Source of the DNA: Polymorphobacter multimanifer
GTDB taxonomy: Bacteria > Pseudomonadota > Alphaproteobacteria > Sphingomonadales > Sphingomonadaceae
DNA length: 64,000 nt
Assembly (NCBI RefSeq): GCF_014205635.1
Contig: NZ_JACIIV010000005.1
Coordinates: 62,001-126,000, forward strand
Reading direction: 5' to 3'
Positions 25,220 to 31,050 of this stretch are shown here, piece by piece; the stretch's first letter is position 1; each line of letters begins with the position of its first letter. The position numbers and the translations under genes were made by a program. The notes under the pieces are model-generated. The model searched no databases and had not been told where the DNA came from. It saw only the letters and a program-made list of their open reading frames with translations.

Positions 25220-25618
25220 TCAGCGGCCGAGCCGCAGCGTGTCGAGGGCGAGGCCGCGCGCGGTGGCGAGGACCTCGACGGTGTTGGCATATTGGCGTGC
25301 GGTCTCGACCATCTCGACGAGCTCCTGGTTGGGATCGACGGCGGCGGTCCAGACATTGCCCTGCGCGTCGGCGAGGGGATGATCGGGCTCATGGCGTGAT
25401 TCAGGCGTGCCGGTCTGGACGATGCCGGCGACATCGACGGTGGCGGTCGAGCGGCCATAGGCGGTGGCGAAAACGGGCTTGAGGGCGCGATAGGCGGTTT
25501 CGGCGCTCCCCGAGAGGCTGCCGGCGTTGGCGAGGTTGGAGGCGATGGTGTTGAGGCGCACGAGCTGGGCGCTCATGGCGCGGCCGGCGATGTCGAAGGT
25601 GGAGAGCTCGGCCATCAT
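25220..25618 (-). CDS. flgC: Flagellar proximal rod protein FlgC
   Basis: 132-residue rod protein. N-terminal FDIAGRAMSAQLVRLNTIASNLANAGSLSGS (core RLNTIASNLANAGS), and C-terminal VDPNQELVEMVETARQYANTVEVLATARGLALDTLRL (core ELVEMVETARQYANTVEV). Length is normal for the family. It overlaps flgB by 4 bp and is 9 bp from flgD. Confidence 0.95.
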   Translation of the reverse strand: MMAELSTFDIAGRAMSAQLVRLNTIASNLANAGSLSGSAETAYRALKPVFATAYGRSTATVDVAGIVQTGTPESRHEPDHPLADAQGNVWTAAVDPNQELVEMVETARQYANTVEVLATARGLALDTLRLGR

Positions 25619-25983
25619 TCGCCTTTCAGCGCTGTGGTGAGGGTCTGGATGCGGCTGGTGAGGAAGCTCAAGGACGCGCGGTAGTGGAGGGCGTTTTCGG
25701 CAAAGGCGGTCTGCTCGGTGGCGAGCTCGACGGTGTTGCCATCGAGGCTGGCCTGCACGGGGACGCGGTAGCGGAGCGCGGTGGCGAAGCTGGTCGACGG
25801 ACTGCCGCTGGCCCGATTGCTGCTTGCTTTGAGGGCGGCGGCGAAATCAACGTCGCGCGCCTTGTAGCCGGGGGTGGCGGCGTTGGCGATGTTGGACGCG
25901 ATGAGCGCCATCCGCTGCGAGCGAAGCTGCATGGCCTGGCCATGGATGCCGAACTGGCGGTCGATGAGATCGGGGATTGCCAT
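25615..25983 (-). CDS. flgB: Flagellar proximal rod protein FlgB
   Basis: 122-residue rod protein, first gene of the flgBCDEFGHIJKL operon. Conserved N-terminus DLIDRQFGIHGQAMQLRSQRMALIASNIANAATPGYKARD (core LIASNIANAATPGYKARD). ATG 25983 is the only start that keeps this region. A sigma-54 promoter with its -12 element at 25995-25999 lies only about 12 bp upstream, which puts the predicted transcription start about 1 nt before the ATG. The mRNA would be leaderless or nearly so, and no Shine-Dalgarno could be transcribed from that promoter. Confidence 0.95.
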   Translation of the reverse strand: MAIPDLIDRQFGIHGQAMQLRSQRMALIASNIANAATPGYKARDVDFAAALKASSNRASGSPSTSFATALRYRVPVQASLDGNTVELATEQTAFAENALHYRASLSFLTSRIQTLTTALKGE

Positions 25984-25994
25984 GGCCGGGGCTG

Positions 25995-26010
25995 TGCAAA
26001 CGCCGTGCCA
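25995..26010 (-). promoter_or_regulatory. Sigma-54 promoter of the flgB operon
   Basis: Minus-strand sequence TGGCAC-GGCGT-TTGCA is a full match to the TGGCAC-N5-TTGCW consensus. The expected transcription start is near 25984, adjacent to the flgB ATG at 25983. It faces away from the tandem dyads at 26043-26079. Confidence 0.85.
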
Positions 26011-26042: not shown

Positions 26043-26079
26043 CGGCAAGACTTTGCCGGGATGCGGCAAGGCATTGCCG
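26043..26079. promoter_or_regulatory. Tandem dyads between flgB and flgA, candidate enhancer for a sigma-54 activator
   Basis: CGGCAA-GACT-TTGCCG (26043-26058) and CGGCAA-GGCA-TTGCCG (26064-26079) are two perfect 6+6 dyads with 4-bp spacers, 21 bp apart from start to start (two helical turns). The distance to the flgA sigma-54 element is 43 bp and to the flgB element 32 bp, a difference of 11 bp or one turn. The same tandem arrangement precedes flhA. An FlbD- or FleQ-type flagellar activator is the natural candidate binder, by analogy. Confidence 0.8.
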
Positions 26080-26122: not shown

Positions 26123-26138
26123 TGGCGCGGAACTTGCT
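26123..26138 (+). promoter_or_regulatory. Sigma-54 promoter of flgA
   Basis: TGGCGC-GGAAC-TTGCT fits the -24/-12 consensus with one difference in the -24 box. The expected transcription start is near 26149, giving flgA a leader of about 19 nt that includes GAGG before the ATG. Confidence 0.8.
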
Positions 26139-26167: not shown

Positions 26168-26707
26168 ATGTACGTGCTTGTGGGATTGATGATGGCGGCT
26201 GCGGCTCCGACGATGGCGAATGCCGATCTGCTGGCGGCAGCCGAGCGCTTTGCCGGGCGGGCGCTGCTGGTCGATGACCGGCTGCAGCTGCCGGCCTGTG
26301 CTGCTCCTGGCTTTGCCTGGGCGGGGCCGCTGGTCGAGGCGCGCTGTGCGGCCCCGGCGTGGCGGGTGTTCCTGCCACCGCAGGGCGAGTCGGCTGCGCC
26401 CGGCATGGTGTATGCGCCGGCTGCGCCGGGCACTGTTTATTCGCCGGCTGCGCCGGGAATGGTTTACGCGCCGGCTTCGCGCGGTGTCGATGGTGCACCC
26501 CGCTACCGGCGTGGCGAGCGGGTCGTGGTGACGTTGGCGGGGGCCGGTTTCGATGTGCGGCTCGAGGCGATTGCCGAGGGCGATGAGCACGATGGCCGGC
26601 TTTGGGTGAGGCCGCTGGGCGGCAATGGCCGGCGGCTGCGGGTGCGCGTGGACGAAGACGGACGGACTGCAATAGATGGTTTAAATGGTCTGGTTTCGGG
26701 TCGTTAA
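26168..26707 (+). CDS. flgA: Flagellar P-ring assembly chaperone FlgA
   Basis: 179-residue periplasmic chaperone for FlgI. The signal peptide is MYVLVGLMMAAAAPTMANA. The C-terminal half, YRRGERVVVTLAGAGFDVRLEAIAEGDEHDGRLWVRPLG (core GERVVVTLAGAGFDVRLEAI), is the FlgA beta-rich domain. Residues about 77-103 are three 9-residue repeats of the type APG(M/T)VY(A/S)PA, encoded by a 27-bp tandem repeat; this separates the N-terminal part from the conserved domain and is not part of known FlgA. GAGG precedes ATG 26168. It is divergent from flgB. Confidence 0.88.
   Translation: MYVLVGLMMAAAAPTMANADLLAAAERFAGRALLVDDRLQLPACAAPGFAWAGPLVEARCAAPAWRVFLPPQGESAAPGMVYAPAAPGTVYSPAAPGMVYAPASRGVDGAPRYRRGERVVVTLAGAGFDVRLEAIAEGDEHDGRLWVRPLGGNGRRLRVRVDEDGRTAIDGLNGLVSGR
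26396..26476 (+). repeat. 27-bp tandem repeat in flgA (three copies)
   Basis: Three consecutive 27-bp units beginning GCGCC(C/G)GGC/A and ending GCGCCGGCT or TCGCCGGCT. They encode Ala-Pro-Gly-x-Val-Tyr-x-Pro-Ala three times. Most differences between units are at third codon positions, so the peptide is more conserved than the DNA. Confidence 0.9.
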
Positions 26708-26708: not shown

Positions 26709-26774
26709 TGTCACGATGGCTTTGGTTCAGCCGTTAATTGAGCCATGAAGATGCGATATGGAAGGAGCAGCAGC

Positions 26775-27050
26775 ATGATCGAAGGCATTGGCCGCATGCA
26801 GCAGATTACAGCGGCGCCGCCCGAGGCTGGAGCGCGGGCGGGTGACCAGCGCGCCGGTGCGCGGCCCGAGCGGACGGCTGGGGACGAAGCGCAGGCGATG
26901 AGCCTGGCAAAGGTGAGCGCCGACATGGCGGCGAGCCCACCGGTGGACGCCGCGAAGGTGGCAAGCCTGCGCGAAGCGATTGCAGACGGACGCTACAAGC
27001 ATGACCCGCAGGCGATTGCCGAGGCGATCATGGCCCAGGGTGGGCTGTGA
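26775..27050 (+). CDS. flgM: Anti-sigma-28 factor FlgM
   Basis: 91-residue regulator that holds FliA inactive until the hook is complete and FlgM is exported. Typical FlgM C-terminal half: AKVASLREAIADGRYKHDPQAIAEAIM (core VASLREAIADGRYKHDPQAI), preceded by a disordered Ala/Arg/Gly-rich N-terminus. ATG 26775 has GGAG 8 nt upstream; an in-frame ATG at 26745 lacks this. It overlaps the next gene by 4 bp (GTGA). Confidence 0.9.
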   Translation: MIEGIGRMQQITAAPPEAGARAGDQRAGARPERTAGDEAQAMSLAKVSADMAASPPVDAAKVASLREAIADGRYKHDPQAIAEAIMAQGGL

Positions 27051-27385
27051 CCGAGAGCCTCGCCGAACGGACTGACAGTTTCGCGCGGCTGGTGATGGCG
27101 ATCCGCAGCGAGCTGGCAGCGCTCGATGCCGAAGATGCAGCCTCGATCGAGGCGGCGACGGTGGCGAAGACTGCAGCGCTCGACGCTGTGGCGCGCGATG
27201 TGGAAGCAGGTGCCATGGACCGGCCGGCGCTTGAAGAGGCGCGGCGGCTCAATGCCGAAGCGGCGCTGAAGGCGCGCGCCAAGATGATCGGCGTCGAGCG
27301 GAGGCTGGTCGCTGTGGCGAGCGGCGCCGGGCGGCCGGCGGCGCTGACCTATGGGCGCAATGGCCGCTGGGCTGCAGCAGGCTGA
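27047..27385 (+). CDS. FlgN-like flagellar export chaperone
   Basis: 112-residue, almost wholly helical protein with GTG start inside the flgM stop codon. Its composition and place after flgM match FlgN, the chaperone for FlgK and FlgL. Long helices are LAERTDSFARLVMAIRSELAAL and RRLNAEAALKARAKMIGVERRL (shortened to LNAEAALKARAKMIGVE). Primary-sequence similarity to FlgN is weak, as usual for the family, so the assignment rests mostly on context. Confidence 0.7.
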   Translation: MTESLAERTDSFARLVMAIRSELAALDAEDAASIEAATVAKTAALDAVARDVEAGAMDRPALEEARRLNAEAALKARAKMIGVERRLVAVASGAGRPAALTYGRNGRWAAAG

Positions 27386-27422: not shown

Positions 27423-28208
27423 ATGCCGGCTCCTGCTGGCACGGCAATTGCAAAGACAGAGAAGATGGACCGGCGCCGATGGGGCTGCCGGCCCGGGGGA
27501 GACTGTGGTTTGCGCATCGAGACGCGAGCAGCGGAAGGGGTGATTGCAGCGGTGCGAAGCGCTGCGGCGCGCACCGGCACCGATTTCGGCTTTCTGCTGG
27601 CGCAGGCGCGGAGTGAATCCGGGCTCGACCCGCGGGCACAGGCGAAGTCATCGAGCGCGCGGGGGCTGTTCCAGTTCACCAGCGGCACCTGGATGGAAAT
27701 GGTGCGACGGCATGGCGCCGAGCATGGTTTGGGCTGGGCGGCCGAGGCGTTGAAGGCGGGAGCTGCAGGCTCTGGCGTGCGCGAGGCGATTTTGGCGCTG
27801 CGCGACAGCCCCGAGGCGGCGAGCCTGATGGCGGGCGAACTGGCGCGGGACAATGCGGCCGCACTTGGCCGGTCGCTGGGGCGCGCGGTGACGGCAGCCG
27901 AAGTGCATATGGCGAGTTTTCTGGGAGCTTCGGGGGCCACGCGCTTCCTGACGGCGCTGGCGGCCGACCCGCAAGCCCCGGCGGCGGCAGTGGTGCCGCA
28001 GGCGGCAGCGGCAAACCGGGCAATCTTTGCTGCCAGGGACGGCAGCCCGCGATCGCTGGCCGAAGTGATGGCGGTGATGGCCGGCAAGATCGGCGGCAAT
28101 GATCTGCCGGTGCGCGGCAACGGCTTGCCGGTTGCAGCACCACCTCCCGCCATGCTGCCGGCGCAGGCGCGCATGGCGTATCTGCTGCTCGCCGAGCTTG
28201 GCGGATGA
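27423..28208 (+). CDS. Lytic transglycosylase of the flagellar cluster
   Basis: SLT-type peptidoglycan hydrolase likely to open the wall for rod growth, the job done by the FlgJ C-terminal domain in enteric bacteria. The catalytic Glu lies in LLAQARSESGLDPRAQAKSSSARGLFQFTSGTW (core QARSESGLDPRA and SARGLFQFTSGTW), with a later AEVHMASFLGASGATRFL block. The start is uncertain: ATG 27423 or 27465, but TTG 27510 has GGGGGAG 8 nt upstream and begins right at the conserved domain (232 residues). The gene's end carries the flhA promoter and dyads, and overlaps flhA by 4 bp. Confidence 0.85.
   Translation: MPAPAGTAIAKTEKMDRRRWGCRPGGDCGLRIETRAAEGVIAAVRSAAARTGTDFGFLLAQARSESGLDPRAQAKSSSARGLFQFTSGTWMEMVRRHGAEHGLGWAAEALKAGAAGSGVREAILALRDSPEAASLMAGELARDNAAALGRSLGRAVTAAEVHMASFLGASGATRFLTALAADPQAPAAAVVPQAAAANRAIFAARDGSPRSLAEVMAVMAGKIGGNDLPVRGNGLPVAAPPPAMLPAQARMAYLLLAELGG
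28094..28130. promoter_or_regulatory. Tandem dyads upstream of flhA, candidate enhancer
   Basis: CGGCAA-TGAT-CTGCCG (28094-28109, one mismatch) and CGGCAA-CGGC-TTGCCG (28115-28130, perfect) are 21 bp apart, as in the flgB-flgA region. They lie inside the coding sequence of the lytic transglycosylase. The gap to the sigma-54-like element downstream is 43 bp, identical to that before flgA. Confidence 0.75.
28174..28189 (+). promoter_or_regulatory. Sigma-54-like promoter of flhA-fliA
   Basis: TGGCGT-ATCTG-CTGCT keeps the essential GG and GC with correct spacing; the -12 box has C for the first T. The predicted start of transcription is near 28200, about 5 nt before the flhA ATG at 28205. The matching dyad geometry supports it. 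Confidence 0.65.
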
Positions 28209-30310
28209 GCGTGGCGAGCGTTCTCGGCCGCTTGCGTGGCGGCCGCCTGGCGGGGGCCGACCCCGGGGCTGCCGCGTTGGGCGCGATCCTGCCGGTGGCG
28301 ATCCTGTCGCTGGTGCTGCTGATGGTGGTGCCGCTACCGGCGGCGTTGCTCGATGTGTTCTTCATCCTCAACATCGGCATCGCGCTCATCGTGCTGATGG
28401 TGGCGATCAACACCAGGCATCCGCTCGATTTTTCGGTGTTTCCGACCGTGCTGCTGTTCGCGACGCTGTTGCGGCTTTCGCTCAACGTGGCGTCGACACG
28501 GGTGGTGCTGGTGCATGGCCATGAGGGGACGGCGGCGGCGGGGCATGTGATCGAGGCGTTCGGCGGGTTTCTGGTGGGCGGCGATTATGTCGTCGGGCTG
28601 TTCGTGTTTGCGGTGCTGATGATCATCAATCTCGTTGTCATCACCAAGGGCGCCGGGCGCGTTTCGGAAGTGGCGGCGCGGTTCACCCTCGATGCGCTGC
28701 CGGGCAAGCAGATGGCGATCGATGCCGACATGAATGCCGGGCTGCTGAGCGCGGAAGACGCGCGCGCGCGGCGGGCGCAGGTGGGGCGCGAGGCGGATTT
28801 TCATGGTGCCATGGATGGTGCCTCCAAGTTTGTGAAGGGCGACGCGGTGGCGGGGCTGCTGATCCTTGCGATCAACATCGTCGGCGGGCTGATTCTGGGA
28901 GCGGTGAGCCATGACCTGTCGCTGGCCGAAGCCGCGCGCATCTATCTGCTGCTTGCCGTGGGCGACGGGCTGGTGGCGCAGGTGCCCGCACTCCTGCTGT
29001 CGATCGCCACCGCCCTTGTGGTGACGCGGGTGGGATCGGACCTCGATCTTGCGGGGCAGGTGGTGGCGCAATTTGCGCAAGGCCGCAGCTGGACGCCGGT
29101 GGCGGTGATGCTCGGGCTGATGGGGCTGCTGCCGGGGATGCCGCATCTGGTGCTGCTGGCGGCGGCCGGGGGGGCGGGCTTTGCCGCCTGGCGGCTTCGC
29201 GCACCCCGAGCGATGGCGGTGGTGGCGGATGCGCCCGAGCCGGCGATGGCGGCGATCGAATGGCGCGATGTGAGCGAGACCGCCCCTGCCGGGCTGGAGC
29301 TGGGCTTCGGGCTGGTGGGGCTGGTGGATGATGCCAAGGGGAGCGTGCTGATGGGGCGGATCACCGCGATCCGGCGCCAGCTGAGCAAGGGGCTGGGGCT
29401 GGTGGTGCCGCCGATCCGGGTACGCGACGATCTGGGGCTGCCGCCGTTCCAGTACCGCATCCTGATTTCGGGCGTGGTGGTGGGGGAGGACCAGGCGTTT
29501 CCCGACGATGTGCTGGCGATCGAAGCGGGGCCGGTGGAGGCGGTGATTCCGGGGCGCGAGGTGCGCGACCCGGCGTTCGGGCTTCCGGCACGCTGGATCG
29601 ACCCCGGCGAGGCCGACCTGGCAACGGCGGCGGGTTATACGGTGGTGGATGCCGCGAGCGTGATCGGCACGCATCTGAACCATCTGCTGCAACTCCACGC
29701 GCACCGGCTGATCGGGCAGGACGAGGTGCAGGCGATGCTCGACACGCTGGCGGAGAGTGCGCCCGCACTTGCCGGCGCCCTGGTGCCCAAGCTGCTGCCG
29801 CTCGCGGTGGTGACGCAGGTGGTGCAGCGGCTGGTGGAGGAGGCGGTGCCGGTGCGCGACCTGCGCTCGCTGGTTTCCGGGCTGGTGGCGCTGGCGCCGC
29901 GGATGCAGGAGCCGGCCGAGCTGGCCGAGGCGCTGCGGACCACCCTGGGGGCGGCGATCGTGCAGACGGTTGCCGGGTTGAAGGAGCCGCTGGCGGCGAT
30001 CGCGCTCGACCCGGCGCTTGAAAATCTGCTGCTGGGAGCGGTGCGTGCTGCTCCGGGACAAGCCTGGCCATTCGACCCCGAGCTGGGCGGCCGCGTGGGC
30101 GAGGCGGTGAGCGCTGCGGCGGCGCCGCTGATGGCCGAGGGGCGGCGCTTCGCGGTGGTGACGGTGCCGGCGGTTCGGCGGCCCTTGTGGAGCCTGCTCA
30201 AGGTGCGGCTGCCGCAGCCGGTGGTGCTGGCGTTTGGCGAAATTCCCGATGAGCGGACGGTCGATGTCGTTGCCGTTGTCGGTGGGCAGAATGCTTTGGG
30301 AGACGGGTGA
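28205..30310 (+). CDS. flhA: Flagellar type III export gate protein FlhA
   Basis: 701-residue export gate protein. About eight membrane helices occupy residues 25-330; the large cytosolic domain that docks chaperone-substrate complexes follows. The FHIPEP family signature RFTLDALPGKQMAIDADMNAG (core LPGKQMAIDADMNAG) and GAMDGASKFVKGDAVAGLLI are exact. The ATG overlaps the transglycosylase stop by 4 bp. A sigma-54-like promoter and tandem dyads lie inside that upstream gene. The end is coupled to fliA (TGATG). Confidence 0.97.
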   Translation: MSVASVLGRLRGGRLAGADPGAAALGAILPVAILSLVLLMVVPLPAALLDVFFILNIGIALIVLMVAINTRHPLDFSVFPTVLLFATLLRLSLNVASTRVVLVHGHEGTAAAGHVIEAFGGFLVGGDYVVGLFVFAVLMIINLVVITKGAGRVSEVAARFTLDALPGKQMAIDADMNAGLLSAEDARARRAQVGREADFHGAMDGASKFVKGDAVAGLLILAINIVGGLILGAVSHDLSLAEAARIYLLLAVGDGLVAQVPALLLSIATALVVTRVGSDLDLAGQVVAQFAQGRSWTPVAVMLGLMGLLPGMPHLVLLAAAGGAGFAAWRLRAPRAMAVVADAPEPAMAAIEWRDVSETAPAGLELGFGLVGLVDDAKGSVLMGRITAIRRQLSKGLGLVVPPIRVRDDLGLPPFQYRILISGVVVGEDQAFPDDVLAIEAGPVEAVIPGREVRDPAFGLPARWIDPGEADLATAAGYTVVDAASVIGTHLNHLLQLHAHRLIGQDEVQAMLDTLAESAPALAGALVPKLLPLAVVTQVVQRLVEEAVPVRDLRSLVSGLVALAPRMQEPAELAEALRTTLGAAIVQTVAGLKEPLAAIALDPALENLLLGAVRAAPGQAWPFDPELGGRVGEAVSAAAAPLMAEGRRFAVVTVPAVRRPLWSLLKVRLPQPVVLAFGEIPDERTVDVVAVVGGQNALGDG

Positions 30311-31050
30311 TGGATGCACGTTTGGGGATCGATCCGGCACTTTATGCGCCTGCCGGGCGGGTTCCGCCCGATCCGGAGCGGCTGGTGGCGTGCCATCTGG
30401 GGCTGGTGCGCAAGCTCGCCTGGCATGTGCATGGCCGGGTTTCGACCGCGATCGATGTCGAGGATCTGGTGCAGATCGGCATGGTGGCGCTCATCGAGGC
30501 GGCGCGCAGCTTCGAGGACCGGGGGCAGGCGGCCTTTGCCACCTATGCGACGGTGCGGGTGCGCGGGGCGATGATCGACCAGCTGCGCAAGGGGGCGACG
30601 GTGGTGCGCTCGGCCATGCGGCGGCGGCGCGAGTGGGCGGTGGTGCGTTCGGCGCTGGAGCTCGAGTTGGGGCGTGCGCCAACCGATGGCGAGATGGCGG
30701 CGCGGCTGGAGATGGGGCTGGACGCCTATCACGCCGCACTCGGGGCGATGCAGACGACGCATATCGAGAGCATCGATGACGTGTATTCGGACCAGAACGG
30801 CTGGTTTGCCGATGATACGCCCGATGCGCACGACATGCTCGAGCGCGAGAGGATGCACGGGGCGATTGCGGCGGTGGTGAAGACGCTGCCCGAGCGCGAG
30901 GCGATGGTGCTGCAGCTGTATTTTGTCGAGGAGCTCAATCTGGAGGAGATCGGCCAGGTGCTGGGGGTGGGGGCGGCGCGGGTGTGCCAGATCAAGAAGG
31001 CGGCGCTGGGCAAGCTGCGGACGAAGCTTGGGGGCTGGCAGGACGATTGA
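30310..31050 (+). CDS. fliA: Flagellar sigma factor FliA (sigma-28)
   Basis: 246-residue sigma factor for late flagellar genes. Region 2 reads HLGLVRKLAWHVHGRVSTAIDVEDLVQIGMVALIEAARSFE (core DVEDLVQIGMVALIEAA) and YATVRVRGAMIDQLRK; region 3 ELELGRAPTDGEMAARL; region 4 LPEREAMVLQLYFVEELNLEEIGQVLGVGAARVCQIKK (core NLEEIGQVLGVGAARVCQIK). Its antagonist FlgM is encoded in the same cluster. Placing fliA behind flhA under sigma-54 control gives a normal sigma-54 to sigma-28 cascade. Confidence 0.96.
   Translation: MDARLGIDPALYAPAGRVPPDPERLVACHLGLVRKLAWHVHGRVSTAIDVEDLVQIGMVALIEAARSFEDRGQAAFATYATVRVRGAMIDQLRKGATVVRSAMRRRREWAVVRSALELELGRAPTDGEMAARLEMGLDAYHAALGAMQTTHIESIDDVYSDQNGWFADDTPDAHDMLERERMHGAIAAVVKTLPEREAMVLQLYFVEELNLEEIGQVLGVGAARVCQIKKAALGKLRTKLGGWQDD

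Follow-up and report, generated by a model that had tools for sequence, protein, structure and literature searches.

Two inverted repeats inside the reading frame of a lytic transglycosylase gene, at positions 28094–28109 (CGGCAATGATCTGCCG) and 28115–28130 (CGGCAACGGCTTGCCG, a perfect dyad), probably form an intragenic downstream enhancer of a sigma-54-dependent transglycosylase-flhA-fliA operon, bound by a sigma-54 activator (EBP). Coordinates refer to the window, which is the whole stretch of 64,000 nucleotides analyzed, and no strand is assigned to dyads. This reading rests on selective constraint on the dyads, conservation of a sigma-54 promoter located upstream of the gene (27437–27452), joint loss of the dyads and this promoter, and co-occurrence of the dyads with a candidate EBP. 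The operator hidden in the coding sequence is in all likelihood real, but the promoter that an initial annotation had placed behind it, at 28174–28189, is not.

The region is flagellar. Rightward, on the forward strand, the order is flgA (26168–26707), flgM (26745–27050; PF04316, TIGR03824), a flgN-like gene (27047–27385), the SLT-domain transglycosylase gene (27465–28208; PF01464), flhA (28205–30310; TIGR01398 over cut-off), and fliA, encoding sigma-28 (30307–31050; NF005413 and TIGR02479 over cut-off). The flgA and flgN-like genes are assigned by position only, with no Pfam or NCBIfam match. On the reverse strand, flgB (25615–25983; TIGR01396 over cut-off) runs leftward with flgC (TIGR01395). 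The start of flhA overlaps the transglycosylase stop codon, and fliA overlaps the end of flhA; these overlaps fit a single operon. The initial annotation had flhA-fliA as the likely head of a sigma-54 operon. The two genes are adjacent and probably under sigma-54 control, but within an operon headed by the transglycosylase gene. The ATG of the latter (27465) falls at the predicted +3 position, with a TTG at 27510 as an alternative start.

The letters of the two dyads, their spacing of 21 bp, and the gap of 43 bp to the sigma-54-like sequence at 28174–28189 (TGGCGTATCTGCTGCT, forward strand) are exactly as first described, as is the equality with the flgA side, where dyads at 26043–26058 and 26064–26079 and a promoter at 26123–26138 likewise have a spacing of 21 and a gap of 43. 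The flgA-side dyads are intergenic. They lie between two divergent sigma-54 promoters, that of flgB (TGGCACGGCGTTTGCA, 25995–26010, reverse strand) and that of flgA (TGGCGCGGAACTTGCT, one mismatch, forward strand), and may serve both. Within the genus, 18 of 20 loci have the flgA-side promoter; in the remaining two, the available upstream sequence amounts to 0 and 187 bases.

The paired arrangement is rare. A degenerate pattern of the pair matches only two places in the 3,921,994 bases of the whole genome, both of them flagellar, and the pattern read backward matches none. These are also the only two places in the 64-kb window with a pair at up to 4 mismatches in 24 letters and a spacing of 18–32; one control motif scanned at the same mismatch limit gave no pair there. 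Single dyads within one mismatch number 71 in the genome, versus 39 for the backward-read control, and constitute weak evidence. One perfect lone dyad (C1:216494–216509) occurs without a partner in an ntrC-like frame, where it encodes GNALP and is probably a coding coincidence.

The in-gene dyads are in frame at the 3' end of the transglycosylase gene, and their 21-bp spacing corresponds to a 7-residue peptide repeat (GNDLPVRGNGLP), so that part of the dyad pattern is also a protein pattern. We used a codon-usage null, in which the last 74 residues were recoded at random according to each locus's own codon usage, and counted how often the best 21-bp pair in the recoded sequence scored as well. 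A match to flhA is present in 22 of 24 genus genomes, and 20 loci were used; those left out were L136 (no upstream sequence), L142 (end of flhA only), and the second copies L143 and L144. The null gave p<0.05 at 15 of the 20 loci (mean score 20.25, versus 16.94 in recoded sequences), with a Fisher combination of 1e-20 in which relatedness is ignored. For five control motifs the combined p was 0.55–1.0, and 1 of 100 tests fell below 0.05. The nonsignificant loci were L125 (p = 0.91), L128 (0.10), L129 (0.10), L132 (0.09), and L134 (0.09). Among the significant loci, L127 is borderline (p = 0.0465), and the best pair of L130 sits in another frame. The paired dyads look selected as DNA, beyond the peptide and near a sigma-54 promoter. 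The unusual conservation of synonymous sites predicted for 28094–28130 is borne out in this form, which backs the idea that the coding sequence answers to both a protein and an operator.

Sigma-54 promoters have GG and GC elements at −24/−12 spacing, with the consensus TGGCAC-N5-TTGCW. The site at 27437–27452 (TGGCACGGCAATTGCA, forward strand) matches this consensus perfectly. It is located before the transglycosylase gene, ~640 bp upstream of the dyads, of which it is the proposed target, and would start transcription at ~27463. Six perfect sites occur in the genome, including those of flgB and the transglycosylase gene and one upstream of an EBP gene discussed below. RpoN (PF04552) is encoded in this genome and in 23 of the 24 genus genomes.

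Upstream sequence suffices for this comparison at 18 genus loci (it is too short in L139 and L140), and 15 of them have a perfect distal promoter, 630–782 bp away from the pair. The nearest sites in the three others (L125, L128, and L129) have 2 to 4 mismatches. Dyads are significant (p<0.05) in 13 of the 15 loci with the distal promoter versus none of the three without it (exact p = 0.012, relatedness ignored); L132 and L134 are the two that keep the promoter with a dyad p of 0.09. Across the family, the promoter is present with at most one mismatch at 58 of 58 transglycosylase-flhA loci, and is perfect at 54. The conserved promoter is the one at 27437–27452 and not the one at 28174–28189. 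In many family loci (e.g., L189, L182, and L289), a short inverted repeat is visible by eye just past the transglycosylase promoter, within the predicted leader.

The model of the initial annotation, in which the dyads act on a sigma-54 promoter at 28174–28189 that starts flhA-fliA, is very unlikely. In this genome its geometry is identical, base for base, to that at flgA, and a gap of 43 bp recurs in L137 and L140. On the flgA side of the genus the gap is 42–55 bp, with 43 at 6 of 14 two-dyad loci. Twelve of the 20 genus loci retain the TGGC-N8-TGC core of the proximal site, but this is close to the 9.64 expected from codon usage, so that the synonymous conservation also predicted for 28174–28189 fails to appear. 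The distance between dyads and proximal site ranges from 16 to 68 bp across the 20 loci and is 43 in three. In L133 the site is broken despite 23 of 24 dyad letters being kept. The site derives from a conserved C-terminal peptide, MAYLLLAEL, whose counterparts also occur in loci lacking the dyads (LAYLMLATLGR in L048 and LAYLMLANLGA in L049), and TGGC-N8-TGCW alone is frequent, with 24 occurrences on both strands of the window versus 7.5 in shuffled sequence. Having neither constraint beyond coding nor a fixed distance to the enhancer, the proximal site was rejected as a promoter.

Three further alternatives to a downstream enhancer concern the dyads themselves. They could be a by-product of the peptide repeat GNxLPxxGNxLP that binds nothing, as their spacing of exactly seven codons and the lone perfect dyad arising from such a peptide at C1:216494 would have it. 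The peptide alone was rejected on the basis of the codon null and its control motifs; furthermore, the same pair occurs in noncoding DNA beside flgB at 26 of 29 family loci, and the dyads are lost together with the distal promoter, making this explanation improbable to a high degree. A role in negative control, with the EBP or another factor blocking or delaying read-through into flhA, is unlikely, if less so; the model here is FlbD, which at ftr sites is an activator as well as a repressor. The dyads do lie in the transcribed region just before flhA, and FlbD represses fliF in Caulobacter (PMC3930126). However, the pair of a sister clade is found on the upstream side of this operon's promoter, a position from which a roadblock ahead of flhA would be meaningless, and the dyads are gone along with the promoter in three genus loci. 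Lastly, each dyad could fold in mRNA as a hairpin with a 6-bp stem and a 4-base loop, and the pair is mostly within the transcript. Against this, 109 of 126 base pairs at 21 genus sites were consensus, 11 broken, 6 wobble, and none compensated (the sites were picked near the consensus and are biased toward it), and the flgB-flgA dyads are upstream of both promoters and hence outside the transcripts. The hairpin was rejected for want of compensated pairs and has hardly any probability left.

The downstream enhancer was followed through the family. Relatives of the transglycosylase were found in 91 genomes out of 149. We carried 70 forward and removed 12 in which no flhA follows the gene, which left 58 loci. 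In 14 of these 58, the 3' part of the gene contains a pair with no more than 4 mismatches; each of five control motifs gave 0 of 58. By the codon null, the in-gene pair falls below 0.01 at 11 loci and below 0.03 at 16. In a set of 30 loci, nine transglycosylase relatives without flhA had neither promoter nor pair, L173 and L185 among them having little upstream sequence. A strict form of the pair matches 39 of the 199 family genomes scanned; in a scan of 289 genomes at class level, it matches this one only. At 29 strict-pair family loci, the pair is beside flgB in 26, at the transglycosylase end in two, and unplaced in one.

A second coding-embedded location emerged in a sister clade. There, a pair with a spacing of 30 bp is located in a flgN-like open frame (of the RQMLAVLEAERQALA type), on the upstream side of the same promoter and 280 to 383 bp away from it (e.g., L179, L193, L256, and L283). 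The codon null for this pair is below 0.01 at 23 of 58 loci, versus 2 of 58 for a control motif. Spacings of 19–24 at the upstream place gave 1 of 58 for the dyad and 2 of 58 for one control motif, so that only the 30-bp spacing carries a signal there. One locus, L266, has the in-gene and the flgN pair together. In a tree of FlhA fragments (73 of 74 rows, L260 having been removed by the length or stop filter), a clade of 24 rows comprises 22 of the flgN type, one with both, and one with none, while the remaining 49 rows comprise 24 in-gene, 25 with none, and none of the flgN type. The in-gene state is patchy on this tree and needs 11 changes. A mobile enhancer may be envisaged, with somewhat less than even confidence, in which the sigma-54 promoter stays fixed and the pair has moved between the downstream gene (21-bp spacing) and the flgN-like gene (30-bp spacing). 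The pair would then be written as GNxLP or RQxLA peptide repeats, and the site of an activator would dictate part of two proteins. The apparent relocation to flgN is at most suggestive of position-independent action.

The genome has six strong and three weak matches to Sigma54_activat. By eye from the sequence, four of the six strong EBPs look like NtrC, NtrX, PspF, and DctD. The other two have flagellar neighbors: L004, on contig C3, is the first gene of a flagellar array in which FliF and FliG follow, and L005 adjoins FliD and FlhB. An orthologue of the L004 EBP, defined by E ≤1e-75 (a threshold chosen where the ranked E values show a break, the next match being 3e-70), accompanies the dyads at 36 of 37 family loci and occurs at 12 of the 21 that lack them (Fisher 2e-4, relatedness ignored; L200, whose match has 6 mismatches, was counted as lacking dyads). 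All 28 of the strict-pair genomes sampled have it as well. The orthologue is missing at ten loci, nine of which retain the promoter and flhA but lack the pair, which argues that the dyads track the L004 EBP and not sigma-54 or the flagellum as a whole. The pair is absent from both places at 12 of 48 family loci having the promoter and the orthologue and is thus not indispensable. In G036, the flgN pair is present with no L004 orthologue at 1e-66.

We favor the L004 EBP as the putative binder of the dyads. Its Pfam matches include no N-terminal receiver domain. We call it FlbD-like for its genomic place and, in part, for what we take to be a C-terminal helix-turn-helix; it fails the FlbD model, scoring 275.9 bits against the equivalog NF050807 (cut-off 750), and the RtcR, NifA, NorR, and AtoC models outscore NF050807. 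A perfect sigma-54 promoter (C3:69998–70013, reverse strand; locus L164) precedes the L004 EBP gene, whose ATG is at the predicted +2 position. No dyad pair was found around this operon promoter in the 26 kb scanned or near the fliF-fliG region on C3. One genome of the genus, G106, has no match to flhA or flgB, yet RpoN and an L004 EBP match persist there, perhaps as the remnant of a lost flagellar system.

In the mechanism we propose, the EBP would bind the two dyads in the 3'-terminal part of the transglycosylase gene, reach the promoter at 27437–27452, ~640 bp upstream, through DNA looping, and activate the operon, and in this way would set when flhA (export gate) and fliA (sigma-28) are expressed. 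Looping to the distal promoter is proposed by analogy with Vibrio cholerae FlrC, whose sites downstream of the transcription start act as true enhancers (PMC6504787). The proposed enhancer would share with these sites its place downstream of the start; here it is ~640 bp away and in coding sequence. In Caulobacter, FlbD binds ftr (PMC3930126), and titles cited in PMC3096577 describe ftr2 and ftr3 as downstream sequence elements and mention a 3' enhancer. The resemblance is that paired sites serve, or here would serve, a flagellar EBP. Unlike ftr, the pair here is inside coding sequence, ~640 bp from its promoter, and its strict pattern has the restricted distribution given above. In Myxococcus xanthus, sites for an EBP (Nla28) and sigma-54 are described within genes (PMC9765219); there the promoter elements themselves are intragenic, whereas here the promoter precedes the operon and the proposed enhancer is in its first gene.

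A search of the open-licence literature, which subscription papers mostly lie outside, yielded nothing on sphingomonad enhancers that serve sigma-54 flagellar genes. Intragenic sites have been described before, as have enhancers downstream of the start, the latter for flagellar genes under sigma-54. The proposed downstream enhancer differs in being located in coding sequence, far from its promoter, and apparently swapped for another coding-embedded pair in a sister clade. If correct, one stretch of DNA serves as operator and protein-coding sequence at once, flhA and fliA come under a sigma-54 operon promoter, and the two clades, with two host genes and one promoter, offer a natural comparison of enhancer relocation.

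Two minor observations concern other sigma-54 promoters and start codons. A perfect sigma-54 promoter (C14:118239–118254, locus L167) is located 29 bases before a frame that by eye looks like GlnB/GlnK. The ATG of flgB (25983) coincides exactly with the predicted +2 position of the sigma-54 promoter before it in all 19 genus loci whose upstream region is available (L202–L209 and L211–L221), and the first in-frame ATG of the transglycosylase gene is at +3 in 9 of 72 family rows (two rows being from the same genome) and at +2 in two. With transcription starts as predicted, the sigma-54-dependent flagellar mRNAs of this genus may lack a leader.
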